In this document: positions 1,433-53,984 of the stretch, piece by piece
How positions within the stretch are numbered: position 1 is the first letter of the stretch
Layout of the letters: every line of letters starts with the position of its first letter
Assembly: GCA_943787375.1 (NCBI GenBank)
Contig: CALSME010000002.1
Coordinates: 434,001 to 498,000 of the forward strand
Reading direction: 5' to 3'
Length of the DNA stretch: 64,000 nucleotides
DNA from: an uncultured Polaribacter sp.
Lineage (GTDB): Bacteria; Bacteroidota; Bacteroidia; Flavobacteriales; Flavobacteriaceae
Made by a program: the position numbers and the translations under genes
The notes under the pieces: model-generated
Seen by the model: the letters and a program-made list of their open reading frames with translations, nothing else
What the model was told of the DNA's origin: nothing
Databases searched by the model: none

Positions 1433-1436
1433 ACTT

Positions 1437-3904: not shown

Positions 3905-4659
3905 TGAGCTTTAAATATGAAATAACAGCCACGATTGTTTTGTATCACGAAGACCAGGAGATACTCAAAAGAACCATTGCCTCTTTTTTAAAAATACCCT
4001 TAAAGAAAAAATTGTTTTTAGTCGACAATTCTGCAACAAGAAGTTTTCAGAATTTTTTTATTCATGAAGAAATCGAATACCTCTTTCCAGGAAAAAACAT
4101 TGGGTTTGGCAAAGGGCATAATTTTGTACTAGATAAATTAAATTCTAAATATCACTTATTATTAAATCCGGATATTGAATTTACAGCTACTACAATACCC
4201 ATTTTAATTTCCCAGTTGGAAAAGGATAAAGATGTTGCCTTTGCAACGCCCAAAGTTGTGTATCCCAATCACGAAAAACAATATGTTTGCCGAAAACATC
4301 CTACTTTCTTCGATTTGATAAATCGAAGAGTAAAGATTTTTCCCAAAGCGATTTTAAAAAATGAATATAGAAATCAAGATCCAACAAAGTCTTTTTATCC
4401 CGATTTTATTCATGGATGTTTTATGCTTTTTAAAACAACTGTCTTTAAAGAATTAAAAGGATTTGATGAGCGTTATTTTCTTTATATGGAAGATGCCGAT
4501 ATCTGTAGAGAAATTGATGAGCTAGGAAAAAAGAAGCTTTATTTTCCTGAAGTAACGATTGTACATCATCATCAAAAAGAGAGTGCTAAAAGTTTGAAAT
4601 TATTTTGGTTACATACATCTTCCGCCCTAAAATATTTTTTTAAGTGGGGAGTTTCCTAA
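3904..4659 (+). CDS. Glycosyltransferase family 2 protein
   Basis: This is an inverting GT-A glycosyltransferase of 251 residues. The N-terminal nucleotide-binding fold starts with ITATIVLYHEDQEIL and contains VDNSAT and the metal-binding-type motif LNPDIEF (about residue 87). The acceptor side carries FIHGCFMLFKTTVF and a GFDERYFLYMEDADICREI motif typical of rhamnosyltransferase-like members. It is the last gene of the polysaccharide operon in this window. After it a 94-bp gap leads to purD, which has its own -7 box, so the locus ends here. The sugar transferred is not predictable. Confidence 0.85.
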   Translation: MSFKYEITATIVLYHEDQEILKRTIASFLKIPLKKKLFLVDNSATRSFQNFFIHEEIEYLFPGKNIGFGKGHNFVLDKLNSKYHLLLNPDIEFTATTIPILISQLEKDKDVAFATPKVVYPNHEKQYVCRKHPTFFDLINRRVKIFPKAILKNEYRNQDPTKSFYPDFIHGCFMLFKTTVFKELKGFDERYFLYMEDADICREIDELGKKKLYFPEVTIVHHHQKESAKSLKLFWLHTSSALKYFFKWGVS

Positions 4660-4722
4660 TAAAAAGGGATCTTAAATAAAAAATGTCCTTCCTGTCAAAG
4701 CCTTAATCACAAGAATTTAAAA

Positions 4723-4730
4723 TATATTTG
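4723..4730 (+). promoter_or_regulatory. Bacteroidota -7 promoter box of purD
   Basis: TATATTTG matches the Bacteroidota -7 consensus TAnnTTTG and lies 23 bp before the purD ATG. No clear -33 TTG is seen at the usual 19-21 bp spacing. It separates purD transcription from the polysaccharide operon. Confidence 0.55.
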
Positions 4731-4753
4731 CACCCAGAACAACACAATAAAAA

Positions 4754-6028
4754 ATGAATATTCTTATTTTAGGAGCAGGAGGTAGAGAGCATGCTTTTGC
4801 ATTAAAACTCTCGGAAAGCAAAAAAATTAAACAACTTTTTGTTGCGCCTGGGAATGCAGGTACCGGCAAAATTGCCATCAATGTAAACATCAATCCTACC
4901 GATTTTGAAGCCGTTAAAGAAACGGTCTTAAAAAACAACATTCAAATGGTTGTTGTTGGGCCAGAAGCTCCATTGGTAAATGGTGTGCACGATTTTTTTT
5001 TAGCAGATACCGATTTGAAATCGATTCCTGTAATTGGTCCCAAAAAAGATGGTGCATTGTTAGAAGGAAGTAAAGATTTTTCAAAACAATTCATGCAAAA
5101 ACATGGTATTCCAACAGCACGCTATCAATCCTTTACAAAGGAAAACTTAAAAGAGGGTTTTACATTCCTAGAGACCCTAACTCCTCCGTATGTTTTAAAA
5201 GCAGACGGATTGGCTGGTGGGAAAGGAGTTCTTATCTTAACTGATTTAGCAGAAGCAAAAGCAGAATTAGAAGAAATGGTTTCCAATGAAAAGTTTGGAA
5301 CCGCTTCAGCGACTGTGGTCATTGAAGAATTTTTAAAAGGAATTGAGTTGTCAGTTTTTGTGTTAACAGACGGGAATAGTTATAAAATTTTACCCTCAGC
5401 AAAAGATTATAAAAGAATAGGAGAAGGCGATGTTGGTTTAAATACAGGAGGTATGGGAGCGATATCCCCAGTGCCATTTGCAGACAACGCTTTTTTAGAT
5501 AAAGTAGAAAGTTTGGTTGTGAAACCTACCATTTCTGGTTTGAAAAAAGACGGAATTGATTATCGAGGCTTTATCTTCATCGGTTTGATGAACGATGCTG
5601 GAAACCCATCAGTCGTTGAGTACAACGTTCGAATGGGAGATCCAGAAACAGAAGCTGTTTTACCAAGAATTGAATCTGATTTATATGATTTATTTGAAGG
5701 CGTTGCCAAGCAAACCTTACATGAAAAATCATTTTCGGTAAACCCAAAAACAGCAACAACCGTCATGTTGGTTGCAGGAGGATATCCAGAAGCCTATCAA
5801 AAAGGGAAAGAAATTACAGGGTTTAAAAACACTGAAGACTCCGTTGTTTTTCATGCAGGGACAAAAATTGAGAACGATAAAGTGGTGTCAAACGGAGGCC
5901 GTGTAATGGCTGTAACTTCATTTGGAAATTCTATCGAAGAGGCATTGGCAAAAACCTATGCTACTATCGAAAAGATTCAGTTTGAGGATATGAATTACAG
6001 GAAAGATATTGGGTTCGATTTAGTTTAA
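4754..6028 (+). CDS. purD: Phosphoribosylamine--glycine ligase (GAR synthetase)
   Basis: PurD makes glycinamide ribonucleotide from phosphoribosylamine, glycine and ATP, the second step of purine synthesis. At 424 residues it has the normal family length. The N domain starts NILILGAGGREHAFALKL, the ATP-grasp region carries LKADGLAGGKGV (about 147), and the C-terminal half has NTGGMGAISP and the metal-binding NVRMGDPETEAV (about 290-301). It is monocistronic: its own promoter box lies upstream, and downstream is a convergent histidine kinase gene with only 7 bp between the stop codons. Identification is secure. Confidence 0.97.
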   Translation: MNILILGAGGREHAFALKLSESKKIKQLFVAPGNAGTGKIAINVNINPTDFEAVKETVLKNNIQMVVVGPEAPLVNGVHDFFLADTDLKSIPVIGPKKDGALLEGSKDFSKQFMQKHGIPTARYQSFTKENLKEGFTFLETLTPPYVLKADGLAGGKGVLILTDLAEAKAELEEMVSNEKFGTASATVVIEEFLKGIELSVFVLTDGNSYKILPSAKDYKRIGEGDVGLNTGGMGAISPVPFADNAFLDKVESLVVKPTISGLKKDGIDYRGFIFIGLMNDAGNPSVVEYNVRMGDPETEAVLPRIESDLYDLFEGVAKQTLHEKSFSVNPKTATTVMLVAGGYPEAYQKGKEITGFKNTEDSVVFHAGTKIENDKVVSNGGRVMAVTSFGNSIEEALAKTYATIEKIQFEDMNYRKDIGFDLV

Positions 6029-6035
6029 AATCAGT

Positions 6036-7076
6036 TTATGTTGCCTTTTCTAGTGTGAATGAAAATTCAGCGCCTTTCCCAAATTCACTTTTCATTAAAA
6101 TAATCTCGTTGTGCGCTTCTATAATATGTTTTACAATAGACAATCCTAAACCAGATCCTCCTTGTTCACGAGATCGACTCTGGTCTACTCGGTAAAAACG
6201 TTCAAACAAACGTGGTAGGTGTTCTTGTTGAATTCCTTCGCCATTATCCGTTACTTTTAATTGAAACTTTTGATCATTATAGGTGTCAATACTCACAATA
6301 GTGGTTCCGTTTGGTTTTCCGTATTTTATTGAATTTACAACGAGGTTGATAAGTACTTGTTCAATTTTTTCAACATCTCCTTTTACAAAGACTGGAACTT
6401 CATAAATTCGATCAAAGAGTAACGTGATGTTTCTCTTTTTTGCTTTCATTTCCAATAAATCAAATACATTTTGAATCAATTCTAGAATGTTGAAATTTTC
6501 AATATTTAACTGTAGACCATCCGTTTCTAACTTTGCAATCATGTCTAAATCTTTGATGACAGCAACCAGTCTTTCAACCCCTTTATTAGCCCTTTGAAGA
6601 TACTTTGTTCGAATCTCTTTGTCGTTAGCAGCACCTTCTATTAAAGTTAAAATATACCCCTGTACCGTAAAAAGAGGTGTCTTTAGTTCGTGTGCTAAAT
6701 TCCCTAAAAAATCACGTCTGAAAGAATCGATTTCTGTTAATGTCTGAATCTCTAGCTGTTTTCCTTCTACGAACTTTTGAACACTTTGAGAAAGAGATTC
6801 AATATCTGTAGTCACAGACTTTCGTTGAAACTCATCCGCATCGATATTTGAAAATTCTTTATAAATGTTTTTAATTTTTCTGTAGATAAAATATTCTGCT
6901 CTGTATTGAATGATAAAAAAGGACAATACAAAAAACAATAGTACAAAAATGAGAACTGCAAATTCGCCAAAAGATGGAGCTATAAAATAATAACTCAGTG
7001 CAGCAATTATAATAGCAAGTATTGTAGAATATAGCGAAGAAACCAACGCATAAGTGTATGTTTTTTTAAGTTTCAT
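6036..7076 (-). CDS. Sensor histidine kinase, PhoR-like
   Basis: This 346-residue membrane kinase has two N-terminal transmembrane segments (about 10-33 and 38-58) with only a few residues between them, so it has almost no periplasmic sensor. It then has a HisKA domain with the phospho-accepting histidine in FLGNLAHELKTPL (about residue 130). The HATPase domain shows the N box (INLVVNSIKYG), G1 (DNGEGI), F box (LFERFYRV) and G2 (GGSGLGLSIV). It lies 12 bp downstream of a PhoB/OmpR-type regulator and is its obvious partner. The lack of a sensor loop suggests that it reads a membrane or partner-protein signal, as PhoR does. The phosphate role is inference; no pst genes are in the window. Confidence 0.9.
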   Translation of the reverse strand: MKLKKTYTYALVSSLYSTILAIIIAALSYYFIAPSFGEFAVLIFVLLFFVLSFFIIQYRAEYFIYRKIKNIYKEFSNIDADEFQRKSVTTDIESLSQSVQKFVEGKQLEIQTLTEIDSFRRDFLGNLAHELKTPLFTVQGYILTLIEGAANDKEIRTKYLQRANKGVERLVAVIKDLDMIAKLETDGLQLNIENFNILELIQNVFDLLEMKAKKRNITLLFDRIYEVPVFVKGDVEKIEQVLINLVVNSIKYGKPNGTTIVSIDTYNDQKFQLKVTDNGEGIQQEHLPRLFERFYRVDQSRSREQGGSGLGLSIVKHIIEAHNEIILMKSEFGKGAEFSFTLEKAT

Positions 7077-7088
7077 TAAGCCAGTTTT

Positions 7089-7778
7089 TTAAAGATCTTC
7101 TTCTAAAACAAATTTATAGCCCACTCCTTTCACTGTTTTAAAATGATGATCGCCAATTTTTTCTCGTAGTTTCCGAATGTGAACATCGATTGTTCTGCCT
7201 CCAACTACAACTTCATTTCCCCAAACAGTATCAAGAATTACTTCTCTTTTAAACACCTTTCCTGGTCTTGAGGTCAATAAAGAAAATAATTCAAATTCTT
7301 TTCTAGGCAAAGAAATTCTTTTACCAGCTTTGTAAACAACATATTCATCTCGGTCAATCACAATGTCTCCGATTTTAAAAGAAGTTTCCGTTTCAGACTT
7401 TAATCTTCTTAACAAAGATTTTATTTTACTTACTAAAACTTTTGGTTTTATTGGTTTTGTAATATAGTCATCAGCACCCGCTTCAAAACCTGCAACTTGA
7501 GAGTAATCCTCTCCTCTAGCGGTTAAAAAAGAGATAATGACATTGTCTAAAGATTTGATCTTTCGTATTTTTTCACACGCCTCAATACCATCCATTTCTG
7601 GCATCATAATGTCTAACAAGATGAGTTGAGGAATGTTCTTTTTTGCTGATTTTACTGCTTCAATTCCATTCGTTGCAGTAAAGACTTGATATCCTTCATT
7701 TCTTAAGTTGTAACCAACGATTTCTAAAATATCCGGTTCATCATCAACAAGAAGAATTTTAATATCACTTTTATTCAT
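7089..7778 (-). CDS. Response regulator transcription factor, OmpR/PhoB family
   Basis: This is a two-domain DNA-binding response regulator of about 229 residues. The start is placed at the ATG at 7778 (MNKSDIKILLVDDEPD), which fits the family; an in-frame start 24 bp upstream would add an atypical leader and reach almost to the promoter box. The receiver has the acidic pair DDE, the phospho-acceptor aspartate in LILLDIMMPEMDG (about 52-58) and the conserved lysine in ITKPIKPK. The winged-helix output domain ends in GGRTIDVHIRKLREKIG and VKGVGYKF, the OmpR/PhoB recognition region. It is encoded directly upstream of the kinase and co-transcribed with it. Target genes are not evident. Confidence 0.93.
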   Translation of the reverse strand: MNKSDIKILLVDDEPDILEIVGYNLRNEGYQVFTATNGIEAVKSAKKNIPQLILLDIMMPEMDGIEACEKIRKIKSLDNVIISFLTARGEDYSQVAGFEAGADDYITKPIKPKVLVSKIKSLLRRLKSETETSFKIGDIVIDRDEYVVYKAGKRISLPRKEFELFSLLTSRPGKVFKREVILDTVWGNEVVVGGRTIDVHIRKLREKIGDHHFKTVKGVGYKFVLEEDL

Positions 7779-42856: not shown

Positions 42857-45664
42857 TTAAAACTGGTAGTTGAGGTTCAAGAAATAGGTAGTTCCTCTTC
42901 CAAACCAATATTTATTTCCAAACACAGGAGTTTCTAACGCTTTGTCTTCTTTTAGTTGCCGGTAATTTGCATTCCGTCCTTGTTCAAAACCACCAGAGGT
43001 GTATTTTGTATTGAATACATTGGCAACACTTCCAAAGAAACTAATATATTGTGCGTCGATCTTCCAAGATTTTCCACCAATAAGATTTACCACCAAATAG
43101 CTGTCAAACTGTTCTTGTTGTAATAATTGTCGGGCAATATCTTCATCATAATTATTAAAGGGAATGCCACCATCATCTGTAAAATTGGCGGTTCTTGTTA
43201 GTGGTGCAATGTCGATATAGGTGTTGTCAAAAAAGTTTGCAGTTGCTCCAAAAAACCAATACTCCGGATCACGATAATCAAAACCAACAGCGTATGCCGA
43301 TTGAGGTCCTGACGCTAATTTATACCCCTTTAAATTTGCCGCACCAAAGTCTTTGCGCCCATTGATGAATCCTGCTGCAATTGAGCGATTGTTATTTTCT
43401 GTTGTTAAATACAAATATGGATTATTGTCGTAGGTATATTGTCCAACGCTTGCAGCACCTCTTAATGTTATTGTTGCTGTTATTGCTGCTTCGAGACCCA
43501 ACTCTACCCCAAAATGTTTTGTGTCAATTCCTGTTAAAATTTCTTGCACAAAAGCGGTATGATCACCTCCAATTCCATCCGCAAAGAAAAAGGATATTTC
43601 AGTGGCGTTTTGAAGTTTTGTGAAGTGTCCTGTAATTTTCGATTTTATGCCCGCGCTTCTATAAAGGTAACTTACATCTGAGGTTAAAATTCGTTCACTA
43701 ACGAGCTTGTCCACAACGGCATCATTTTCTCTTGCATTTGAAAAGGTGTTTCTTAGCTGCGGTGCTTTTGTTATGTATCCTGCATTGAGATTTAATAAAT
43801 GCCGGCCAGAAAATTTATAAGTGCCTCCTAATTTTGTTCCAAAATTTGTGAAACGTTGTTTTGGGGTTGTTGTTAGGGAAGTGTTTGGAAAACCTCCATT
43901 TTTAAAGAAACCTTCCCTTTGATGTGTTGTTTCCGATCCGCTCAACGCCACATAAAAATCGATTTTATTGAACTCAAATTGTGCTTGTATAAAAGCATCG
44001 AAAATACTGCTTTTTAGATTAAAATTGTATTTAAAAGTATCTCCAACGCCAACAATACGTAAAGGATTTAATAAATCGTTTTGTTTTTCATCGAATGTAT
44101 CCGCATAAGAATCTACATCTAGGTAACCGTCTGCTCCCAAAAGATCCAACACGTTTGCAAAGTTTTTCGAATTCAATTTTCGATATTGTAATTTCCCATT
44201 TAGGGTACTATTTTCATTAATTTGTTTATCTAAAATAGTATTGACACTAAATTGAGTATCCTCATTCCGATCTTCGTACAAAATATAGGAAGCATTCCCA
44301 TTGTTTTCAACATTGCTGTTCGCTAGATACAACTGATGCCAATTCAATTGTCCGTCTTTTAAAAAATGCTGCTGGATTGCATACACATTGGAAAATCCTT
44401 GCCTCAGAGCATAACTTGGCAGGTTTTGATAATAGGTAGGGTCTGGATTTGAAGTTCCCAATCCCACAATATATGGGTTTGTGGTCCCGTCGGTTGTTCC
44501 TTCTAAAACTTGACTTCCATTGTTGTCTATTCTGCTATTCCCGATGTGTCCAAATTGATATCCTACGTTTGTATTCAGCGTCGTTTTAGGAGTTGTTTTC
44601 CAATCGTGATTGACGATAAAAAAGGGTTCGAAAATAGTTCGAATTCTAGAATTTCGAATGTTTCCATTCTGAAATCCCCAATACGAATTGTAACGAATTC
44701 CTTTCAAATCGAAGACTTCTTGTGTTTGAGGGGCCGCTTTTCCTCGCTTATTTTCGGCTGCAATCGCTGTAAAACTTATTTGATGCTGCTCGTTGAATTT
44801 TTTTTGTAAAGCAGCAAAAAGAGAAGTTGCGTTGTATTTTGTTCCTTCAGAGAAACCCTCTTCGGCAGTTCTTTTACTCAAGGAAAAGGCATATGCCCAG
44901 CCGTTTTCCGACATTCCAGAGGAATGTGTTCCCATAAACCGATGGGCATAACTTCGGTTTGATGAAGCATACGAAATACGGGTTCCTTTTCTTTGGTTGG
45001 CTGCTCTTACATTGATGTTTGTTGCTCCTAAGGCTCCGCCAAAAGTGTATGGAGAAGCTGCCAAGCCAAAACGAAACTCCTGATTTCTAAGCGCATCATT
45101 CAAGCCTCCCCAATTGCCCCATTGTGGACGGCCATGATACATTTTGTTCATTTCAATTCCGTTGATCATTAATTTTGCGTTGTCAGAATTCAACCCTCTC
45201 AATCTAAAAAAGGAAGCACTAAACTCAAAAGCGGCCGTTCTTAAAAACACATCTTTTGACGATTGGAGCAAGCCTGCGATATTGTCGGCTGTTCGCACAT
45301 CGGCATTCAATTCGTCATCCGTAAGCGTAATGATACTTGGATCAATTGACACCGAAAGGACTGCATAGAGCGCTATCAATCCTAAATCTAAAGCACTTCC
45401 AGTAAATTCTATAGGAAAGTTCTGTGTTTCATATCCTTTCATTTGAATGACCAGAAGGTAGCTGCCATTGGGGATGTTTTGAAGTAAAAATTGACCTGCT
45501 GTATTAGACGTTGTGCTAAATGGCGTGTTTTTTATACGAACTGTAACCCCCTGTAATTTTTTTTCAGAGTTGCTGTCAACAAGGATTCCTTTAACTAGGT
45601 TCTGTGTTTGCACTGAGTAACAAAGGAAAAAGAATAGGAATATGAACCAACTATTTTTCTGCAT
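42857..45664 (-). CDS. TonB-dependent receptor with carboxypeptidase-like N-terminal domain
   Basis: This outer-membrane active transporter has about 935 residues. The start is taken at the ATG at 45664 (MQKNSWFIFLFFFLCYSVQT), which gives a signal peptide; the frame continues upstream only as non-coding sequence. After the signal comes a carboxypeptidase-regulatory-like domain (LVKGILVDSNSEKKLQGVTV, about 25-105), then the plug (about 115-230, with FRLRGLNSDNAKLMINGIEM) and a 22-strand barrel ending in the aromatic TTYFLNLNYQF. It is followed by the DUF5689 lipoprotein gene and is divergent from a secreted endonuclease-family gene. Likely substrate: nucleic-acid breakdown products, by context only. 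Confidence 0.9.
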   Translation of the reverse strand: MQKNSWFIFLFFFLCYSVQTQNLVKGILVDSNSEKKLQGVTVRIKNTPFSTTSNTAGQFLLQNIPNGSYLLVIQMKGYETQNFPIEFTGSALDLGLIALYAVLSVSIDPSIITLTDDELNADVRTADNIAGLLQSSKDVFLRTAAFEFSASFFRLRGLNSDNAKLMINGIEMNKMYHGRPQWGNWGGLNDALRNQEFRFGLAASPYTFGGALGATNINVRAANQRKGTRISYASSNRSYAHRFMGTHSSGMSENGWAYAFSLSKRTAEEGFSEGTKYNATSLFAALQKKFNEQHQISFTAIAAENKRGKAAPQTQEVFDLKGIRYNSYWGFQNGNIRNSRIRTIFEPFFIVNHDWKTTPKTTLNTNVGYQFGHIGNSRIDNNGSQVLEGTTDGTTNPYIVGLGTSNPDPTYYQNLPSYALRQGFSNVYAIQQHFLKDGQLNWHQLYLANSNVENNGNASYILYEDRNEDTQFSVNTILDKQINENSTLNGKLQYRKLNSKNFANVLDLLGADGYLDVDSYADTFDEKQNDLLNPLRIVGVGDTFKYNFNLKSSIFDAFIQAQFEFNKIDFYVALSGSETTHQREGFFKNGGFPNTSLTTTPKQRFTNFGTKLGGTYKFSGRHLLNLNAGYITKAPQLRNTFSNARENDAVVDKLVSERILTSDVSYLYRSAGIKSKITGHFTKLQNATEISFFFADGIGGDHTAFVQEILTGIDTKHFGVELGLEAAITATITLRGAASVGQYTYDNNPYLYLTTENNNRSIAAGFINGRKDFGAANLKGYKLASGPQSAYAVGFDYRDPEYWFFGATANFFDNTYIDIAPLTRTANFTDDGGIPFNNYDEDIARQLLQQEQFDSYLVVNLIGGKSWKIDAQYISFFGSVANVFNTKYTSGGFEQGRNANYRQLKEDKALETPVFGNKYWFGRGTTYFLNLNYQF

Positions 45665-45758
45665 AAACAATTTTGTACTATTTTTTTGAATAAAAATAGT
45701 ACAATTATTAACATAAGTTATTAAAAAATAGTAATATTTGCAGTAAACTATTGTAACG

Positions 45759-46820
45759 ATGCCTAAAAAAGGACTATTTCTATTCATCCTATTGATTTTT
45801 ATGGCTACTGTAAAAGCACAAAATGTACCTGCTAAAAAATATGCGATTCGCACCATTGCATTTTATAATTTAGAGAATCTTTTCGATACCATTAACGATC
45901 TTACAAAGCATGATGAAGCAAGTCCGATGATGGAGTTGAAAGGGAATCGGTCGAAGGTATATTGGGACAAAATAGACAAATTGGCAAGTACCATCGCACA
46001 AATTGGCAAAGAAAAAGCCAATACCAGTCCTGCCATTATTGGAGTGTGTGAAGTAGAAAACAGTGCTGTGTTAGAAGACTTGATTGCCAATAAGCATTTA
46101 AAAAAACAGCGGTATGGATTTGTTCATTACGAATCTCCAGACAAACGAGGTATTGATGTGGCTCTTTTGTATCAGCATCGGTATTTTAAACCCATTTTTC
46201 ATCAGGCTTTCAATCCCAATATTTACCGAAACAACCGAAAAGTATTCACCCGCGACCAATTGTTGGTTTCGGGGTATTTGGATGATGAGCTGCTGCACAT
46301 CATTGTAAACCATTGGCCTTCTCGCAGTGGTGGCGAAGCAAAAAGCAGACCTTTACGAGAAAAAGCAGCCTACCAAAACACCAAAATTATCGCTCAAATT
46401 CGATTGAAAGATCCAAAGGCAAAAATTCTCATTATGGGCGATTTTAATGATGACCCAATAAATAGTAGTTTTAAGAAGGTTTTAAAAACAAAAGCAAAAA
46501 AAGAAAATGTAACAGTGACGGATATTTTTAACCCTTATGAAGGGTTGTTCCAGAGAGGGTTTCACACGTTGGGCTATCGAGACAATCTCAATTTATTTGA
46601 TCAAATTCTCATTTCAAAACCCCTACTAGACACTGGCCAGAAAGAGTTCTCGACCTATAAAATGTTTAAAGCGAAGGTGTTTAACAAACGTTTTCTAACC
46701 ACCCGAAAAGGCAAGTACAAAGGCTATCCTTTTCGGAGTTTCTCCTTTGGAAATTATCGTGGTGGCTATAGCGATCATTACCCAGTATACCTGTATTTGA
46801 TTAAAGCACAACCCGATTAA
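45759..46820 (+). CDS. Secreted endonuclease/exonuclease/phosphatase family protein
   Basis: This 353-residue protein has a signal peptide (GLFLFILLIFMATVKAQ). The EEP fold is clear: AFYNLENLFDTINDL (metal-site N and E region), IGVCEVENSAVLEDL (catalytic Glu), GIDVALLYQHRYF, VNHWPSRSGGEAKSRPLRE (His and nucleotide-site region), LIMGDFNDDPINSSF (Asp and Asn) and SDHYPVYLYL (final Asp-His pair). It is a phosphodiesterase of the DNase I-like superfamily acting outside the cytoplasm, without a type IX tail. It is divergent from a TonB receptor/DUF5689 pair, so a shared role in extracellular nucleic acid or phosphate use is likely. Part of its coding sequence (46586-46608) recurs exactly at 50971. 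Confidence 0.88.
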   Translation: MPKKGLFLFILLIFMATVKAQNVPAKKYAIRTIAFYNLENLFDTINDLTKHDEASPMMELKGNRSKVYWDKIDKLASTIAQIGKEKANTSPAIIGVCEVENSAVLEDLIANKHLKKQRYGFVHYESPDKRGIDVALLYQHRYFKPIFHQAFNPNIYRNNRKVFTRDQLLVSGYLDDELLHIIVNHWPSRSGGEAKSRPLREKAAYQNTKIIAQIRLKDPKAKILIMGDFNDDPINSSFKKVLKTKAKKENVTVTDIFNPYEGLFQRGFHTLGYRDNLNLFDQILISKPLLDTGQKEFSTYKMFKAKVFNKRFLTTRKGKYKGYPFRSFSFGNYRGGYSDHYPVYLYLIKAQPD

Positions 46821-46846
46821 TTGCTATTTTCTCTTTTTCAAAACAT

Positions 46847-46902
46847 CCAGTTATTCTTATATAACCCCACTTATTCCCAAAATATACCCATTTGTTTATT
46901 GG
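46847..46902 (+). repeat. Second copy of the phased direct-repeat element
   Basis: The repeat cores begin at 46849 (AGTTATT), 46869 (ACTTATT) and 46890 (ATTTGTT), 20 and 21 bp apart, preceded by CC or CCC, and the block ends in TTTATTGG as at 30222-30277. In both places a -7-like box lies 27 bp after the TTG. The match between two loci about 16.6 kb apart points to shared regulation. Confidence 0.62.
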
Positions 46903-46928
46903 TATAAAAATTAATTGCATAATAAACA

Positions 46929-46936
46929 TATATTTA
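46929..46936 (+). promoter_or_regulatory. -7-like box downstream of the phased repeats
   Basis: TATATTTA differs from the consensus only at its last base. It lies 27 bp after the TTG that ends the repeat element, the same distance as at the 30.2-kb locus, and well upstream of the small protein gene at 47163. Confidence 0.4.
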
Positions 46937-47033
46937 CAAAAAATCAACATTTAATCTTAATATGTATTTAAAAAAGGCATCGGCAATAGAACAAGATAAC
47001 TAATGGGTAGTCTTGTATATCGAAATTGAGCCA

Positions 47034-47064
47034 TTTAAAGACCCGCTGACTAGGGGTCTTTAAA
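47034..47064. other. Perfect 11-bp hairpin upstream of the small secreted protein gene
   Basis: TTTAAAGACCC (47034-47044) and GGGTCTTTAAA (47054-47064) flank the nine-base loop GCTGACTAG. It is followed by A residues, not T, on either strand, so it is not a standard terminator. It could be a leader structure of the mRNA starting near 46942, or the trace of a mobile element. Confidence 0.55.
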
Positions 47065-47162
47065 AAAATGACCACCAAAAGTCTAAAAGCAGATAAACTG
47101 TGTACTGAATTACAAAGACTATAAAAATGAAAATTCAGCATTTAATTTTTAAATATAAAACA

Positions 47163-47444
47163 ATGAAAAAAGTATTTTTTATTCTAGTATTTATGCTAAT
47201 GGGTTCAGTGACCTTTGCAAACAATTCAATAATTGAAGGCAAAGAAAAAAATGAAGTAATCGAAAAGGTAAATTTAGATTACAAAGAAGTTGTAAAGATT
47301 TTTCAGAATGGACTTTTTTGTATAGAAACTCATTATGTTTATTTTGATGGAGAATTAATTGGAGAATTTGAAATTGAAACTTATGGAGTTTATGGCGATT
47401 GTGGTTTTACAATGCATTTTGATTATTCTGAGAATTACAAGTAA
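47163..47444 (+). CDS. Small secreted protein with two cysteines
   Basis: I do not recognise the family. The ATG at 47163 (MKKVFFILVFMLMGSVTFA) gives a good signal peptide cut near TFANNS; an ATG at 47127 would add an unusual 12-residue leader. The mature protein is about 74 residues, acidic, with many E, V and Y, and two cysteines (GLFCIETHY and YGDCGFTMHF) about 28 residues apart that could form a disulfide in the periplasm. It leads the island and is followed by a hairpin terminator before the GLPGLI gene, which suggests higher expression than its neighbours. Whether it is a peptide ligand, a structural protein or a bacteriocin precursor is open. Confidence 0.6.
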   Translation: MKKVFFILVFMLMGSVTFANNSIIEGKEKNEVIEKVNLDYKEVVKIFQNGLFCIETHYVYFDGELIGEFEIETYGVYGDCGFTMHFDYSENYK

Positions 47445-47464
47445 TAATTATTTTCAACTTTTAG

Positions 47465-47497
47465 ATCCCTTAACAATCTGTAATGTTAGGGGATTTT
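47465..47497 (+). terminator. Hairpin terminator or attenuator between the small protein and GLPGLI genes
   Basis: ATCCCTTAACA (47465-47475) pairs with TGTTAGGGGAT (47484-47494), eleven pairs with one G-U, across ATCTGTAA, followed by TTT. Partial read-through would give far more transcript of the small protein than of the downstream membrane genes. Confidence 0.5.
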
Positions 47498-47512
47498 AAA
47501 TCCAATGATATT

Positions 47513-48289
47513 ATGATAAAAACAATCCTATTGATAATCGTTCTATTTTCATTGAATATTTTTTCTCAACAAATTATTCAAATGAAAGTAACTTATCGAG
47601 AAGAATTAAATCTTGGCATTCCTGTAAAAAAACATACTGAATTATTTTTTAATGATAGTGAATCATTTTATGTAGAAAAAGAAAATGATGAAATTTTTCA
47701 AAATAAAAATAATACAAAAATAAAAAGATATGGTACTTACAGCCCTTTCAACAAAACAGTAAATATTAATTTAAAAAAAGATTCCATTTATACAAAAACT
47801 TCTTTAAACAAAAAGATTTTATTAATACACGAGAAAGTAAAAAATATCTCTTGGAAAATTCATAATAACACTACAGATAAAATTTTAGGTTTTAGTGTTG
47901 CTAAAGCAACTGGTTATTTTAGAGGACGTATATATACTGTTTGGTTTACAGATGAAATACCCGTTAAATTTGGCCCTTGGAAACTACAAGGACTTCCTGG
48001 TCTAATATTGGAAGCAAAAGACAATTTAAATCAAGTGTTTTTTATAGCTGAAAAAATAGAATATCTAAAAGAGAACGATTTGGATGATAAATTGTCCTTA
48101 AAAAACAATAATTACGAGACCATTAGTTTAAGGAATTATAATGAGAAATTAAACACATTGAAAGAACTTAAAGTTCAACAAATCATTTCTAGGTTACCTA
48201 AAGGAAGTAAAGTCATTAGTAGAAAATTCATAAAAAATTCAGGAATTGAAACTAAATTCGAATGGGAGGAGAAGACAAAACAAGATTAG
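47513..48289 (+). CDS. GLPGLI family protein
   Basis: This 258-residue exported protein has a signal peptide (MIKTILLIIVLFSLNIFSQQ). The start is the ATG at 47513; an upstream ATG at 47483 would put ten polar residues before the signal. The conserved family motif is WKLQGLPGLILEAKDN (about 160-175), preceded by the usual YTVWFTDEIPVKFGPWKL. GLPGLI proteins are Bacteroidota-specific periplasmic or surface proteins with beta-rich bodies and no established biochemistry. Its stop overlaps the start of the large barrel gene by 28 bp, so the two are coupled and the products presumably act together. Confidence 0.85.
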   Translation: MIKTILLIIVLFSLNIFSQQIIQMKVTYREELNLGIPVKKHTELFFNDSESFYVEKENDEIFQNKNNTKIKRYGTYSPFNKTVNINLKKDSIYTKTSLNKKILLIHEKVKNISWKIHNNTTDKILGFSVAKATGYFRGRIYTVWFTDEIPVKFGPWKLQGLPGLILEAKDNLNQVFFIAEKIEYLKENDLDDKLSLKNNNYETISLRNYNEKLNTLKELKVQQIISRLPKGSKVISRKFIKNSGIETKFEWEEKTKQD

Positions 48290-50943
48290 ATCTTTGTTTT
48301 TCAATTATAATTTTTTTAGTGGCTCAAAATTTTACTTTTTCACAAACTGAAATTTATGGCACTGTTAAAGATGGTACAAATAATTTGTATTCAGTAAGTA
48401 TTATATTAAAAGATTCTCTTACCAAATCGATTATAGCCTTTACCCATTCAGACGATAAAGGAAAATACAAACTAAGTACAAATAAGTATGGAAAATTCAA
48501 TTTGGTATTTAATTCTCTTGGTTATGAAATTAAGACGGTGCCTTTAAAAATAGATATGGGTAGTAGGCTTATTGAGTTGGATGTTTTATTAAAAGATAAG
48601 CCGATAGATTTAGAGGAAGTAATCCTTAGAACAGAAAAACCCATAGTTGTAAAAAAAGATACAATCAACTTTAAAACAATATTTTTTACGAAGGGAACGG
48701 AACAAACAGTAGAAGAATTATTAAAGACCATTCCCGGTTTAAATATAGAAACAGATGGCACTATAAAAGTTGGTAATCAAGAAATTGAAAAATTAATGGT
48801 AGATGGTGATGACCTTTTTGAAAAAGGTTACAAGATTTTGTCTAAAAATATGCCTGCATTTCCTATCGAAGAAGTCGAATTGCTAAAAAACTACGCTAAC
48901 AATCATTTATTAAAAGGTATTGAAGAAACAGATAAAGTCGCTTTAAACTTAAAACTTGACGAAAAATCCAAGCGTATTTGGTTTGGAAATACGGAAGCAA
49001 GTATTGGAAACGACAACTTTTATCAGTTAAAAGCCAATTTGATGAACTTTGGGAAGAAAAACAAATACTACTTCTTGACCAGTCTCAACTCAATTGGCTA
49101 TGATGCCACAGGCGATATTGAAAATTTAATTCGTCCATTTCGTATGAACGAACCAGCAAGTATTGGAGACAATCAAAGTGTAAATTCATTATTAAATTTA
49201 TTGTCAAGTAACCTCAATTTCAAAGAAAGTAGAACCAACTTTAATAAAGCAGAGTTAGTGTCACTAAATGCTATTTTCAATCCCACAGAAAAATTAAAAA
49301 TTAAAATGCTCGGTTTTTTTAATTGGGACGAAACGGACTTTTTTAGAAATTCTAAGAATATTGTAGATGTTAATGGCACAAACTTCACCAATACAGAAGA
49401 TTATCAATTACAAAACAATAAACGTATTACTTTTGGTAAATTAGATGTTATATATAACATCTCAAAAACAAAAATGCTAGAAGCCACAACCAAATATAAT
49501 AATGGCGATTTTAACGACAATTCCAACTTACTATTTAACGGTAATTCTACCATTGAGAACTTACAACATCAAAATACACTTTTTGACCAAAAAATAAGCT
49601 ACACCAACAAATTTAAAGACAAAAAAGTATTTTTGCTAACAAGTCGTTTTATAGACGAAAAAACACCTCAAAATTATAATATAAATCAATTTTTTTATCA
49701 AGATTTATTTCCTGCAATTACAAATGCTAATGCTATAAATCAACAAAGCACTAATCAAATGCAATTTGCAGGAGTAAACGCACATCTATTAGACCGCAAG
49801 GACAATGGACACCTATTGGAATTACAATTAGGTAACGAGTTTAGAAAAGATAAATTACAATCTACATTTTCACTTTTAGAGAACAATACGGTTTTAGAAC
49901 AGCCAAACGGATATCAAAACGAAACCATTTCTCAAGTCAACAATTTGTACCTTAAAAGCAAGTACAGATTAAAAATTAAAGATTTTGGCATTGTTGGTAA
50001 ACTAGATGTACATCAGCTTTTTAACCGTTTAGAAAACAATAATACAACTAGTAATCAAAATCCGTTCTTCATCAATCCAAGTTTGGGTTTTGATTGGAAA
50101 ATAAATGATAAAAATAAAATTACATCTTCTTACTCATACAACACTACAAACGCAAAAGTTTTAGATGTATTTAGTGATTTTGTTTTAACTGGTTTTCGTT
50201 CCTTCTCAAAAGGAATAGGCAGTTTTAATCAGTTAGACGCTTCGAGTGTGGTTTTTAATTATCAATTAGGTAATTGGAGTGATCGTTTTTTTGCCAATAC
50301 ATTTATCCTTTACAGTAAAAATCACGATTTCTTTTCAACAAATATAGCAATAGAACAAAACTTTACCCAAGCGGAAAAAATATTGATTAAAGACCGTGAG
50401 TTTATAAGTATAAATTCAAAATTAGATTATTACTTCAAGTTTATTTCGTCAAACTTAAAAGTAGATTTAGGCTATACAAAAAGCGAATTCAAGAATATTG
50501 TAAATAATTCTAATTTAAGACTGGTAACCTCAAATAACTATAATTATGGTTTAGAACTTCGTTCTGGTTTTAAAGGTATTTTTAATTACCATATTGGCAC
50601 AAAATGGACAACAATGGAAATAGAAACTACCATAAATAATTCATTTACAGATAATGTAAGTTTCTTAGATTTATCGTTTATTTTTAACAAAAATCTTGAT
50701 TTTCAATTACAGTTTGAACGCTACTATTTTGGAAATCTACAAACCGATAATATCTATTACTTTTTGGACTTTGATGCAAGATATAAACTCATTAAAAATA
50801 AATTAACTCTAGGGATTACGGGTAAAAACCTTTTCAATACGGAAAGATTTAGGAATTTTTCAATTAGTGATATTGGAACATCAACAACCGAGTATAGATT
50901 GCTTGAAAGATATGTGCTTTTAAAATTGGAATACAGGTTTTGA
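48262..50943 (+). CDS. Plug-and-barrel outer-membrane protein (TonB-receptor-like) paired with GLPGLI
   Basis: This 893-residue outer-membrane protein has a signal anchored by LCFSIIIFLVAQNFTFSQ (about 11-28), a carboxypeptidase-regulatory-like domain (EIYGTVKDGTNNLYSVSIIL, about 30-115), a plug-like region (about 125-230, TVEELLKTIPGLNIETDG, KLMVDGDDLFEKGY) and a large barrel ending in RYVLLKLEYRF. The first ATG overlaps the previous gene by 28 bp and is the only plausible start in frame. The plug lacks an obvious strong TonB box. The pair with GLPGLI recurs in this phylum, and the function is not established. The operon seems to end at the hairpin at 51101-51132. Confidence 0.82.
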   Translation: MGGEDKTRLDLCFSIIIFLVAQNFTFSQTEIYGTVKDGTNNLYSVSIILKDSLTKSIIAFTHSDDKGKYKLSTNKYGKFNLVFNSLGYEIKTVPLKIDMGSRLIELDVLLKDKPIDLEEVILRTEKPIVVKKDTINFKTIFFTKGTEQTVEELLKTIPGLNIETDGTIKVGNQEIEKLMVDGDDLFEKGYKILSKNMPAFPIEEVELLKNYANNHLLKGIEETDKVALNLKLDEKSKRIWFGNTEASIGNDNFYQLKANLMNFGKKNKYYFLTSLNSIGYDATGDIENLIRPFRMNEPASIGDNQSVNSLLNLLSSNLNFKESRTNFNKAELVSLNAIFNPTEKLKIKMLGFFNWDETDFFRNSKNIVDVNGTNFTNTEDYQLQNNKRITFGKLDVIYNISKTKMLEATTKYNNGDFNDNSNLLFNGNSTIENLQHQNTLFDQKISYTNKFKDKKVFLLTSRFIDEKTPQNYNINQFFYQDLFPAITNANAINQQSTNQMQFAGVNAHLLDRKDNGHLLELQLGNEFRKDKLQSTFSLLENNTVLEQPNGYQNETISQVNNLYLKSKYRLKIKDFGIVGKLDVHQLFNRLENNNTTSNQNPFFINPSLGFDWKINDKNKITSSYSYNTTNAKVLDVFSDFVLTGFRSFSKGIGSFNQLDASSVVFNYQLGNWSDRFFANTFILYSKNHDFFSTNIAIEQNFTQAEKILIKDREFISINSKLDYYFKFISSNLKVDLGYTKSEFKNIVNNSNLRLVTSNNYNYGLELRSGFKGIFNYHIGTKWTTMEIETTINNSFTDNVSFLDLSFIFNKNLDFQLQFERYYFGNLQTDNIYYFLDFDARYKLIKNKLTLGITGKNLFNTERFRNFSISDIGTSTTEYRLLERYVLLKLEYRF

Positions 50944-50970
50944 TAATATGGGATACCTTGCTAGCGCCAG

Positions 50971-50993
50971 TCTCAATTTATTTGATCAAATTC
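50971..50993 (+). repeat. Exact 23-base copy of part of the endonuclease-family gene
   Basis: The 23 bases from 50971 are identical to those at 46586-46608, which encode part of LNLFDQILI in the secreted endonuclease-family gene. The flanks differ. The two copies face the same way and bracket the stretch that carries the small protein, GLPGLI and barrel genes. Confidence 0.6.
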
Positions 50994-51001
50994 CCCGATA
51001 G

Positions 51002-51083
51002 CGCGAGCATCTTGCTCGTGACCTCAAGCGTAAGAAGATAACAAAGTTGTAGGAAATAGCACTTTCATACCGAAACAGCAACC
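51002..51083 (+). repeat. REP-like hairpin plus conserved 25-base block, copy A
   Basis: CGAGCA and TGCTCG flank TCT (51004-51018), with a wobble extension to 51002-51020. An AG-rich linker follows, then a 25-base block (51059-51083) ending in CATACCGAAACAGCAACC. Copy B at 51753-51843 has the same order and direction and 24 of the 25 block bases. Confidence 0.6.
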
Positions 51084-51100
51084 CGCTCCGAAAAGGCCCC

Positions 51101-51137
51101 TGTAGACTTCCCCTTTTTTAGGGAAGCCTACATTTTT
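51101..51137 (+). terminator. Rho-independent terminator of the GLPGLI/barrel operon
   Basis: TGTAG (51101-51105) and CTTCCC (51107-51112) pair with GGGAAG (51121-51126) and CTACA (51128-51132), with one internal mismatch, followed by TTTTT. Confidence 0.62.
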
Positions 51138-51181
51138 AGGGAAACCTAAAGGAATAATACAAGTACGAGTATGAATGGAAA

Positions 51182-51213
51182 TTGTAATGGTTCAAAAAAT
51201 TAACTTATTTTTG
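51182..51213 (+). promoter_or_regulatory. Promoter of the DUF4160-DUF2442 pair
   Basis: TTG at 51182-51184, a 21-bp spacer and TATTTTTG at 51206-51213 form a complete Bacteroidota promoter. The box ends 4 bp before the ATG at 51218, so the transcript should be leaderless or nearly so. Confidence 0.65.
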
Positions 51214-51217
51214 TCTT

Positions 51218-51454
51218 ATGCCAACAATATTAAGAATTAATGGATTTCGCTTTTTCTTTTATAGTAATGAACATTTACCTATTCATATTCACGTTGAAAA
51301 AGACAATAAGACGGCTAAATTTACTTTAGAAGAAATTGAACTTGTTAAATCAAGAGGCTTTAATGCTTCCGAATTAAAAGAAATGCGTAAATTAGTAAGT
51401 GAGAATGTAGAACTTTTTAAAAACAAATGGAATGAGTATTTTAACAATCAATAA
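51218..51454 (+). CDS. DUF4160 domain-containing protein
   Basis: This 78-residue soluble protein spans the whole DUF4160 family. The core is MPTILRINGFRFFFYSNEH, PIHIHVEKDNKTAKFTLE and SRGFNASELKEMRKLVSE. The histidines in HLPIHIHVE are the conserved polar cluster of the family. It is usually encoded next to DUF2442 and the pair is often proposed to be a toxin-antitoxin-like module, but I know of no proof of function. The start overlaps nothing upstream and follows a strong promoter box by 4 bp. Its last 23 bp overlap the DUF2442 gene. Confidence 0.88.
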   Translation: MPTILRINGFRFFFYSNEHLPIHIHVEKDNKTAKFTLEEIELVKSRGFNASELKEMRKLVSENVELFKNKWNEYFNNQ

Positions 51455-51668
51455 ATCAAAATTTGCTACAGACTTGTCTTTTACAGATACAAAAATGATT
51501 ATTCAATTTGAAGATGGACGAGAATTATCGGTCCCATTAGAATGGTTTCGTAAATTACGGAATGCATCAAAAGAACAATTAACAAAGTGGCGTTTCATAG
51601 GTAAAGGAGAAGGAATTCATTGGGAGGAATTAGACGAAGATATTTCTATTGAAAATTTATTGGAATAA
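51432..51668 (+). CDS. DUF2442 domain-containing protein
   Basis: This 78-residue protein matches DUF2442 along its length: ATDLSFTDTKMIIQFEDGRE, LSVPLEWFRKLRNASKEQLT and KWRFIGKGEGIHWEELDEDI, ending SIENLLE. The family has a compact alpha/beta fold related to NE0471-type domains and is commonly adjacent to DUF4160 or similar small genes. The ATG at 51432 lies inside the DUF4160 gene, in a different frame, so translation is coupled. Together they are bracketed by two copies of a REP-like repeat. Function unknown; a toxin-antitoxin role is a hypothesis. Confidence 0.88.
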   Translation: MSILTINKSKFATDLSFTDTKMIIQFEDGRELSVPLEWFRKLRNASKEQLTKWRFIGKGEGIHWEELDEDISIENLLE

Positions 51669-51752
51669 CTTTTACAAACAAGACTGATTTAAAAACTAAC
51701 ACTTTTATCCTAGGTTTCAAATTTTTGTTTACACTTCTTTTCTGCTTACCCC

Positions 51753-51843
51753 CGCGAGCGTCTCGCTCGTGAAGGTAAGAGTACGTAAAAAGGAATAAAA
51801 TAGAAAAGATAGAACGCAGCACTTACATACCGAAACAGCAACC
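51753..51843 (+). repeat. REP-like hairpin plus conserved 25-base block, copy B
   Basis: CGAGCG and CGCTCG flank TCT (51755-51769). The 25-base block is at 51819-51843 and ends 4 bp from the recJ stop codon on the other strand. Compared with copy A the block has one difference and the linker is 9 bp longer. Confidence 0.6.
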
Positions 51844-51847
51844 TCTT

Positions 51848-53533
51848 TTACTTCAAATCTTTTAGTAGTAATTGAATGGATTTAACCCCATTCCATTCAT
51901 TTTCATCCAAGGCATAGACAATATCAAACTCATTTTGAATCTCCGTTATTTTAGAGCCCAAATTAAAGCCAATGGCATTGTAGGTTTTAGAGTCAGCCCC
52001 AGCAACGATGTTTAACTTTAAATGAGTTTTGTCTGCACCCACTTGCTTGCCATAGCCATTGTCTCTTACCGCAGATGTCTTAAAAGTAGGCTTCATATTT
52101 TGCGGACCAAAAGGCGCCATTTGCTGTACAATTCGAAAGAACTTGGGCGTAATTTCCGAGAGATCAATTTCCGCATCAATCAAAATTTCAGGTGTCAACA
52201 ATTCTTTTGGAATGGTTGTGCGCACCACTTCTTCAAATTTGGCTTTAAATTTTTCGTAGTTTTCGGGCAATAACGTTAACCCGGCCGCATACTTATGACC
52301 TCCAAATTGTTCGATGAATTCTTCACAAGCTTGCAAGGCATTGTACACATCAAAGCCTTTTACAGAACGAGCAGAAGCCGCAAGTTTGTCGCCACTTTTA
52401 GTAAAAACCAGCGTTGGGCGGTAGTGCTTTTCAATCAATCGAGAAGCAACAATCCCAATGACGCCTTTGTGCCAATCTTCTTTGTAAACCACCGAAGTAA
52501 ACCGATCTTCTTCGGCATTATCTATGATTTGCATTAGGGCTTCGTTGGTAATTTTTTTATCCAAATCTTTCCGGTCCGCATTAAAAATTTCAATGGCAGC
52601 TGCAAATTCCACTGCCGAATCAAAATCCATTTCTGTCAATAATTCTACTGCATAATTTCCGTGTTTCATTCTTCCTGCAGCATTAATTCTGGGTGCTATA
52701 ATAAACACGACATCGGTAATGGTCAGTACTTCTTTTTTGGTTTGATGAATGATCGCTTTGATGCCGTTTCTTGGGTTGGAATTAATTACTTGTAGCCCAA
52801 AATAAGCAAGCGTTCTGTTTTCTCCATTCATTGGGACAATGTCTGCCGCAATTGCCGTTGCCACCAAATCCAAATAAGGCACAAAATGAGCAATGCTTTG
52901 TTGCCTATTTTTTCCAAGCGCTTGAATCAATTTAAAACCCACTCCACAACCACACAATTCATCAAACGGATAGTAGCAATCGGCTCTTTTTGGGTTTAAA
53001 ATGGCCACTGCTTTTGGCAATTCCGGACCTGGTTTGTGATGATCACAAATAATAAAGTCAATCTTTTTTTCAGAAGCATAAGTCACTTTATCAAGGGCTT
53101 TTGTACCACAGTCTAAAGCAATAATTAAGGAGAAATTATTGTCTTCTGCAAAGTCTATTCCTTTAAAAGAAACTCCATAACCTTCTTCATATCGGTCTGG
53201 GATATAAGTAGAAATATTGGGATAAATTGTTTTTAAATAGGAGGCAACCAATGAAACTGCTGAGGTTCCGTCTACGTCATAATCGCCAAAAACTAAAATA
53301 TTCTCATGATTGCGAATTGCAGTTTCAATACGCTCCACCGCTTTGTCCATGTCTTTCATTAAAAAAGGATCATGGAGATCGTCTAGGCTGGGTCTAAAGA
53401 ATTTTTTAGCCTCCTCAAAAGTGGAGATGTTTCGCTGCAGTAAAATTTCAGCAATGGTCATATCCACAGACAAATCTTTTGCAAGTTTTGCTATTTTTTC
53501 TTTCTCAATTTTTGGTTTTGAACTCCAGCGCAT
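51848..53533 (-). CDS. recJ: Single-stranded-DNA-specific exonuclease RecJ
   Basis: This 561-residue protein is a 5'-3' single-strand exonuclease used in recombination and mismatch repair. DHH motifs are LVFGDYDVDGTSAVSLVASY (about 79-98), ALDCGTKA, ICDHHKPGPELP (about 159-170) and AARINAAGRM-type PRINAAGRMKHG. The DHHA1 domain has VVYKEDWHKGVIGIVASRLI and EQFGGHKYAAGLTL. A C-terminal OB-like domain finishes the protein. All catalytic aspartates and histidines appear present. It is downstream of (and separated by 28 bp from) the OsmC-type gene, and its 3' end abuts repeat copy B. Confidence 0.95.
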   Translation of the reverse strand: MRWSSKPKIEKEKIAKLAKDLSVDMTIAEILLQRNISTFEEAKKFFRPSLDDLHDPFLMKDMDKAVERIETAIRNHENILVFGDYDVDGTSAVSLVASYLKTIYPNISTYIPDRYEEGYGVSFKGIDFAEDNNFSLIIALDCGTKALDKVTYASEKKIDFIICDHHKPGPELPKAVAILNPKRADCYYPFDELCGCGVGFKLIQALGKNRQQSIAHFVPYLDLVATAIAADIVPMNGENRTLAYFGLQVINSNPRNGIKAIIHQTKKEVLTITDVVFIIAPRINAAGRMKHGNYAVELLTEMDFDSAVEFAAAIEIFNADRKDLDKKITNEALMQIIDNAEEDRFTSVVYKEDWHKGVIGIVASRLIEKHYRPTLVFTKSGDKLAASARSVKGFDVYNALQACEEFIEQFGGHKYAAGLTLLPENYEKFKAKFEEVVRTTIPKELLTPEILIDAEIDLSEITPKFFRIVQQMAPFGPQNMKPTFKTSAVRDNGYGKQVGADKTHLKLNIVAGADSKTYNAIGFNLGSKITEIQNEFDIVYALDENEWNGVKSIQLLLKDLK

Positions 53534-53561
53534 TGCAATTTTTTTTAAACTTTAGGGCACT

Positions 53562-53984
53562 CTATGGGTGCAGGTGAATGCCGATCGTTATCGTCGCAAA
53601 CTGTCGAAACATTTCCATGACACCACAATATTTTTCAACCGATAAATCGACAGCTTTGTTTATTTTGTCCTCAGGCAATTCGCTTCCATAAAAGTGATAA
53701 TCTACCAACACTTTGTTGTAAAATTTTGGATGTTCTTCCGTCAATTCACCAGTAACAACAATTTTAAAATCAGCAAGGCTTACTCTCATTTTTGCTAAAA
53801 GAGATACTACGTCCAGTCCAGAACAACCTGCTAAAGAAGAAAGCATCAGTGCCTTTGGTCTATAGCCAGCGTCATTTCCGCCATGTTCTTCCGAAGTGTC
53901 AATTAAAAGATTGTGTCCTCCAGGATTGTCAGATTCAAAGAGCATATTTTCTTTCCAGGTAGTTGTAACGATGTTTGTGTTCAT
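53562..53984 (-). CDS. OsmC family peroxiredoxin-like protein
   Basis: This 140-residue protein has the OsmC/YhfA fold. One conserved cysteine is in LSSLAGCSGLDVVSLLAKMR (about residue 54) and the other is in VEKYCGVMEMFRQFATI (about residue 121), matching the two active-site cysteines of the family. OsmC-type proteins reduce organic hydroperoxides; the YhfA branch is less well characterised. It is upstream of recJ in the same direction, 28 bp away, and divergent from the AhpD-like gene, another thiol protein, so oxidative stress may connect the two. Confidence 0.87.
   Translation of the reverse strand: MNTNIVTTTWKENMLFESDNPGGHNLLIDTSEEHGGNDAGYRPKALMLSSLAGCSGLDVVSLLAKMRVSLADFKIVVTGELTEEHPKFYNKVLVDYHFYGSELPEDKINKAVDLSVEKYCGVMEMFRQFATITIGIHLHP

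Follow-up and report, generated by a model that had tools for sequence, protein, structure and literature searches.

In Myxococcus xanthus, the TonB-dependent transporter Oar is required for export of PopC (PMC6434023). The bacteroidetocins, peptide toxins of Bacteroidales, are exported peptides of Bacteroidota that are small and have two or more cysteines (PMC6671954). Here we analyse a three-gene unit encoding a small exported protein, a GLPGLI protein and an outer-membrane plug/barrel protein. It lies in a 64,000-nucleotide stretch of an uncultured Polaribacter sp. (GCA_943787375.1, contig CALSME010000002.1, positions 434,001 to 498,000 of the forward strand; hereafter the window). We found neither a description of the whole unit nor a role for GLPGLI proteins in searches of an open-access library, and no tested family holds the whole unit. 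Sequence comparison indicates that the small protein, termed cargo below, and the GLPGLI protein constitute an exchangeable, matched module beside a shared plug/barrel protein.

Joint variation of cargo and GLPGLI protein

The unit consists of the following elements, numbered within the window:

47163..47444, + strand: cargo, a small exported protein of 93 amino acids with a Sec-type signal and two cysteines in the mature part
47163..47222, + strand: region coding for the leader (signal peptide); in relatives its DNA is nearly constant and the mature part unrelated
47463..47496, + strand: hairpin between the cargo and GLPGLI genes, a terminator or attenuator candidate on account of its folding against shuffles and its recurrence in relatives
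47513..48289, + strand: GLPGLI protein with a signal peptide, a predicted LolA-like half-barrel and the variable partner of the cargo
47990..48007, + strand: GLPGLI motif, located where that protein is best conserved
48262..50943, + strand: outer-membrane plug/barrel protein of 893 amino acids with an Oar-like layout, the shared constant part
48352..48624, + strand: CarbopepD_reg_2 domain at the N terminus of the barrel protein, more variable than the core and tracking neither cargo nor GLPGLI closely
48703..50940, + strand: plug and barrel core (residues 148-893), which stays conserved between loci whose cargos are unrelated

The three genes lie where the original prediction had placed them, and the two cysteines are present. 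The Sec-type signal was recognised by eye and by the rule of an in-house script, and no lipobox was seen by eye. A start of the cargo gene at 47163 is preferred over the ATG at 47127 because relatives begin at the former. The GLPGLI protein belongs to TIGR01200 (139.1 bits, cut-off 50), and its stop is overlapped by 28 nucleotides by the start of the barrel gene. The barrel protein carries the N-terminal domain PF13715 (39.8 bits, cut-off 32.2), as Oar-type proteins do. Neither Plug PF07715 nor barrel PF00593 was listed for it by Pfam, and OMP_b-brl_3 scored 25.7 bits, slightly under its cut-off of 27. Apart from a weak hit (E 0.01) on the N-terminal portion of a SusC homologue, the barrel profile retrieved no solved transporter.

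Forty-five complete loci were compared in 990 pairs. In 15 of the 16 pairs whose GLPGLI proteins are at least 50% identical the cargos are related as well; when the pairing of GLPGLI and cargo was permuted, the maximum was 5 related, and none of 10,000 permutations reached 15. These thresholds were picked after the pair list had been viewed, and the comparison was repeated with different cut-offs, on ranks and on nearest neighbours. The top 16 pairs by rank shared 14 with cargo, 4 with the N-terminal domain and 4 with the core. Nearest neighbours by GLPGLI agreed with those by cargo at 28 of 44 loci, compared with 6 for the N-terminal domain and 8 for the core (L228, a near-duplicate of L223, was dropped from this test). 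Rank correlation over the whole set is weak (partial r 0.21), a value reached by 0 of 2000 permutations; the signal sits in few related pairs because most cargos are mutually unrelated. Both the cargo and the GLPGLI protein of the window have their nearest relative at the same locus, L260 of Polaribacter marinus, at 57% and 58% identity respectively, the next GLPGLI protein being 39% identical.

The core behaves differently. It is at least 80% identical in 82 pairs, 72 of which have GLPGLI proteins below 40% identity and 74 of which have unrelated cargo (score under 0.2). In these 74, the most diverged core window of 25 amino acids is still 56% identical in the median and 40% at worst. For instance, the window and the Nonlabens locus L196 share 87% of the core, 55% of the N-terminal domain and 33% of the GLPGLI protein, with a cargo score of 0.10. 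Outside the cargo-bearing subfamily the GLPGLI protein keeps pace with the core: core/GLPGLI identities of pairs are 89/89, 77/69 and 66/69, the loosest near them being 71/45. The N-terminal domain of the barrel, also considered as part of the exchanged module, was dropped from it on account of its loose tracking.

The cargos are extremely diverse: 107 distinct small proteins form 41 clusters, among them 30 singletons. Their leaders, by contrast, can be near-identical across genera. In 38 pairs picked because their leaders are similar and their cargos unrelated, the DNA of the leader was 93% identical in the median, that of the mature part 47% and that of the 120 nucleotides upstream 57%. Because the sequence diverges so fast, searches with the small protein are nearly useless; that of the window matched in 19 of 397 family genomes at an expectation value (E) of 0.01, its own included, and of 19 matched places outside its own genome four adjoin a barrel homologue (G010, G014, G049 and G273 contig 25). 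No relative was found in 17 candidate viral stretches. Assignment of the cargo to a known family failed, neither the window cargo nor ten others having a Pfam or NCBIfam match over cut-off. The predicted fold of the window cargo was too weak for use (predicted local distance difference test, pLDDT, 59).

In contrast, the GLPGLI protein was modelled well (pLDDT 89.5). The model best matched the N-terminal domain of PNGF-II and a related PNGase (Z about 16), followed by an uncharacterised Thermus protein (Z 11.5) and by half-barrels of LolA, VioE, EPDR1, RseB and MucB (Z 8.8-11.3). LolA chains were among the matches listed with Z 10.0-11.3 over 134-143 residues, and Foldseek ranks agreed with the Z-score list. 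A half-barrel carrier fold like that of LolA is therefore what the model predicts. Absence of a chaperone family from this list of structure matches does not exclude that family. Compared with 11 loci that have a similar barrel and a different cargo, residues 141-180 including the motif are 40-68% identical per ten residues and the rest 1-40%. The constant stretch may be the face turned toward the constant barrel, and the variable remainder the cargo side.

Linkage, hairpin and genomic setting

Association of small open reading frames (ORFs) with GLPGLI genes was counted in three sets. The family set comprises barrel homologues at E 1e-60 or better from 38 of 397 family genomes including the own genome, of which two further GLPGLI clusters were also taken. 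The phylum set comprises 60 GLPGLI regions; of 99 genomes of the phylum, 24 had matches, and these supplied the regions, exclusive of single matches in G430, G464, G482 (C31) and G408 (C1:1537055), of two in G427 and of places already included elsewhere. In all 107 stretches of these two sets genes were called by one in-house script. The named set holds the best 80 of 121 barrel-found loci in named genomes of Winogradskyella, Bizionia, Polaribacter, Psychroflexus, Tenacibaculum, Mesonia, Flavobacterium and other genera, counted with the window as 81 loci. Family and named sets draw on overlapping species and are not independent.

The original prediction had proposed that a small secreted, cysteine-bearing ORF accompanies GLPGLI/barrel pairs, and this association was borne out. 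In the named set, an exported small ORF with at least two cysteines directly precedes 70 of the 105 GLPGLI genes having an upstream gene (four more lie at contig edges), compared with 2 of 299 other genes. The family set gave 34 of 60 GLPGLI genes versus 0 of 164 other genes at the same loci, and the phylum set 13 of 81 versus 4 of 276. Both the signal-peptide rule and the gene caller are crude in-house scripts; since they miss some cargos (L065 and L226, judging by predicted starts), the counts are probably low. The small ORF belongs to the barrel-selected subfamily, and many other GLPGLI-barrel pairs lack one.

Several arrangements were seen beside the common one. Seven loci (L139, L143, L145, L146, L149, L151 and L153) from two sister-family genomes rich in GLPGLI (25 and 11 matches) have small exported cysteine-bearing ORFs before GLPGLI genes, mostly with no adjoining barrel. 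On contig 7 of the own genome (L104, about 84-7394), a GLPGLI-GLPGLI-barrel unit follows an exported ORF of 116 amino acids without cysteines and adjoins a histidine kinase and a response regulator identified by Pfam; neighbours of other cargo-less pairs look similar, as judged by size only. In Riemerella, several GLPGLI genes are under direct PhoP regulation according to the consulted part of the report (PMC9603813).

Cysteines are a regular feature of the cargos. In the named set, just 3 of 73 small exported ORFs directly before GLPGLI genes have fewer than two. Of the 70 with at least two, 62 have an even number, as do 34 of 37 additional small ORFs selected by the same rule. Disulfides in the cargos are likely on these counts. 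At three loci (L085, L086 and L100) a single GLPGLI gene is preceded by two different small cysteine-bearing ORFs of recurring types, which would suit a cargo made of two subunits.

The hairpin between the cargo and GLPGLI genes, likewise part of the original prediction, is more than a chance fold. It has 13 pairs, and 1 of 200 shuffled sequences gave an equally good structure (z -3.09). It was not listed by a terminator scan and has a short U tract. In 36 of the 45 complete relatives, window included, a hairpin with T after it occurs at this place, where 2.7 are expected from 10 dimer-block shuffles of each gap. Counted over cargo-GLPGLI gaps of 25-120 nucleotides it occurs in 47 of 70, compared with 1 of 15 gaps that separate a GLPGLI gene from a barrel gene or from another GLPGLI gene, and with 10 of 65 gaps between other genes on the same strand. 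The recurring hairpins differ in sequence and are unrelated between loci. Such recurrence fits a higher level of cargo transcript than of partner transcript.

The unit has the marks of an accessory element: it occurs in arrays and on a plasmid, and its chromosomal slot is variable. On contig 1 of the own genome (L105), an array of small ORFs and GLPGLI genes, interspersed with decayed GLPGLI pieces, precedes a single barrel gene; three of the small ORFs have a common leader and differ in their mature parts. The Flavobacterium plasmid NZ_CP092371 carries one barrel gene (36% identical) together with two GLPGLI genes and four small ORFs whose leaders are almost the same, flanked by transposase genes on both sides. 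In the window the unit sits between an endonuclease/phosphatase-family gene and recJ. This slot holds restriction-modification genes (ResIII/HSDR_N_2, and N6_Mtase with Methylase_S) in one same-genus genome and other genes in a second (slot loci L283 and L284); GLPGLI and barrel profiles found nothing in either. The genome with restriction-modification genes carries a broken barrel piece, 85% identical, elsewhere.

A side branch differs in cargo type. At L097 and L098, whose barrels are 27% identical, the cargo position is held by a small ORF with four cysteines and, as judged by eye, a double-glycine (GG) type leader. It adjoins a gene with Peptidase_C39, VKOR and Thioredoxin_4 domains, all over cut-off, and this arrangement lies at 2182-4082 in L097. 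This gene indicates that the cargo position holds secreted, oxidised peptides in L097 and L098 too. The L098 ORF, the one of the two that was screened, has weak, sub-threshold matches to a family of ribosomally synthesised and post-translationally modified peptides (RiPPs) and to a bacteriocin family. GG-type ORFs also lie near GLPGLI genes at L140 and L175, although not before them.

Around the window unit, an 11-bp inverted repeat with a 9-nucleotide loop, followed by an A run, was seen by eye at 47034-47064 between the upstream gene and the cargo gene; it is perhaps a terminator for the other strand. Just downstream of the unit, genes for DUF4160 (51218-51454) and DUF2442 (51432-51668) proteins overlap and are possibly a toxin-antitoxin pair. 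The DUF4160 gene matched the DhiT toxin at 19.9 of 100 bits, far below cut-off.

Proposed export of a cartridge-like module and its alternatives

We give roughly even chances to the reading that the locus is a modular export unit for small proteins, in which a cargo and its dedicated periplasmic carrier are served by a common Oar-type barrel. The parts of the unit that sequences bear out are a signal peptide, at least two cysteines, a co-varying GLPGLI protein, a non-varying plug/barrel and a recurring hairpin. Sec would carry the small protein to the periplasm, where its disulfide would form. The GLPGLI partner, with its LolA-like half-barrel, would bind the cargo there as a cargo-specific carrier and dock via its constant strands and the GLPGLI motif on the constant plug/barrel. 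The barrel, TonB-energised as reported for Myxococcus Oar, would then let the cargo out, and the hairpin would ensure that more cargo is made than GLPGLI protein and barrel. That the units are diverse, are gained and lost, and occur in arrays and on plasmids suggests that they serve in conflict between strains or in their recognition of one another. A more specific proposal is somewhat less probable than even: an undescribed secretion route of Bacteroidota, in which matched LolA-fold carriers hand hypervariable disulfide mini-proteins to a constant, outward-directed TonB-dependent barrel, recombination between leader and plug/barrel, both of them conserved, exchanges cargo and carrier as one cartridge, and the GLPGLI motif is the docking face.

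Several observations weigh against export by a modular unit. Its export, binding and disulfide steps are drawn from sequence. Outside the subfamily, GLPGLI-barrel pairs without a small cysteine-bearing ORF are common, indicating that the pair has another or older use. Seventeen GLPGLI genes follow another GLPGLI gene rather than a cargo gene, which fits immunity as well, and cargo presence changes at least 18 times on the barrel tree (parsimony, no shuffled control). GLPGLI identity is low also at L064, L073 and L077, which belong to the subfamily and have no adjacent small ORF; variability thus does not strictly need an adjacent cargo gene. The excess of even cysteine numbers is a modest signal, mostly because two is the commonest number, and among small ORFs with at least three cysteines 21 have an even and 11 an odd number. 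Pfam called no Plug domain in the barrel protein. A LolA-like fold alone does not establish function, and the closest fold, that of PNGF-II, is an enzyme domain. Finally, neighbouring genes may be exchanged jointly without acting jointly. Simple linkage, however, should carry along the N-terminal domain of the barrel too, because this domain starts where the GLPGLI protein ends; it does not co-travel.

The strongest alternative, compatible with most of the data and yet rather unlikely in our estimate, is that the cargo is a bacteriocin-like mini-protein, the GLPGLI protein its cognate periplasmic immunity protein and the barrel an exporter or an entry gate used against competitors. A variable cargo linked to a co-varying partner is what a toxin-immunity cassette displays, so the same covariation would be expected. 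Cargo-less GLPGLI genes and the decayed GLPGLI pieces of the own-genome array resemble orphan immunity genes, and the chromosomal slot carries a restriction-modification system in a same-genus genome. The GG-type cargos beside the C39/VKOR/thioredoxin gene, with the sub-threshold RiPP and bacteriocin matches at L098, point the same way. However, GLPGLI-barrel pairs are widespread without a cargo gene, 0 of 11 tested cargos match any family over cut-off, and the LolA-like fold suggests carrying.

Assembly of a surface structure in the manner of chaperone-usher systems, with cargos as coat or fibre subunits, GLPGLI as chaperone and the barrel as usher, is improbable. It would account for the loci with two different small ORFs per GLPGLI gene, for cysteine-bearing cargos and for a hairpin that raises cargo dose. 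The extreme diversity of cargo and matched GLPGLI protein does not suit such a structure, nor does the single cargo-GLPGLI unit found in 60 of the 81 loci.

TonB-dependent proteins usually import, which together with placement in one unit would favour a secreted signal sensed or taken up by the barrel of its own unit; this is very improbable, as a receptor would be expected to change along with ligands as unlike as these, and the core, 80-90% identical between loci with unrelated cargos and free of any strongly diverged window, does not. Anti-phage defence was not supported: none of five window proteins had a PADLOC match at E 0.01. The original interpretation, a small secreted protein with either an outer-membrane receptor or an exporter, stands in part: small protein, hairpin and GLPGLI-barrel pair belong together, and the barrel fits an exporter better than a receptor.

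Comparison with known systems

In type III and type VI secretion, the gene of an effector-specific adaptor lies beside a variable cargo gene, and both serve one constant machine. The proposed modular export unit has the same logic, with a signal peptide and an outer-membrane barrel instead; no homology is claimed. Its putative carrier resembles LolA/LolB, carriers that bind acylated lipoproteins, in the predicted half-barrel fold, whereas a sequence profile search with the GLPGLI protein did not list LolA. To the N-terminal domain of PNGF-II (PF22252) it is similar in both sequence and fold; that domain is part of a 544-residue enzyme, and the GLPGLI protein is a free exported protein. Up to 25 GLPGLI matches occur in one genome in some Flavobacteriia-like families. 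Matching to a cargo gives these proteins a testable task and suggests a first job for them.

The bacteroidetocins resemble the cargos in being small, exported and cysteine-bearing. They differ from the window unit in their GG leader, peptidase-containing ATP-binding cassette (ABC) transporter, thiol oxidoreductase and membrane protein; no immunity protein was found for them, and the consulted part of the source mentions neither a GLPGLI protein nor a barrel (PMC6671954). The window cargo has a Sec-type signal rather than a GG leader and matches no bacteriocin family, and the Pfam-scanned proteins of 42857-53984 include no peptidase-containing ABC transporter.

Oar is among the closest known systems. 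PopC, unlike the cargos, is a protease without a signal peptide, and the excerpted account of Oar/PopC mentions neither a GLPGLI partner nor a small cargo exported by Sec, nor any exchange of cassettes (PMC6434023). On the other hand, Oar and the barrel described here share a carboxypeptidase-regulatory N-terminal domain before plug and barrel, and the substrate of Oar crosses the outer membrane from the periplasm, as it would on the route proposed here (same partial source). If the barrel exports, Oar would no longer be a single case but one of a widespread group, and environmental bacteria would offer a rich supply of varied small proteins with cysteines.

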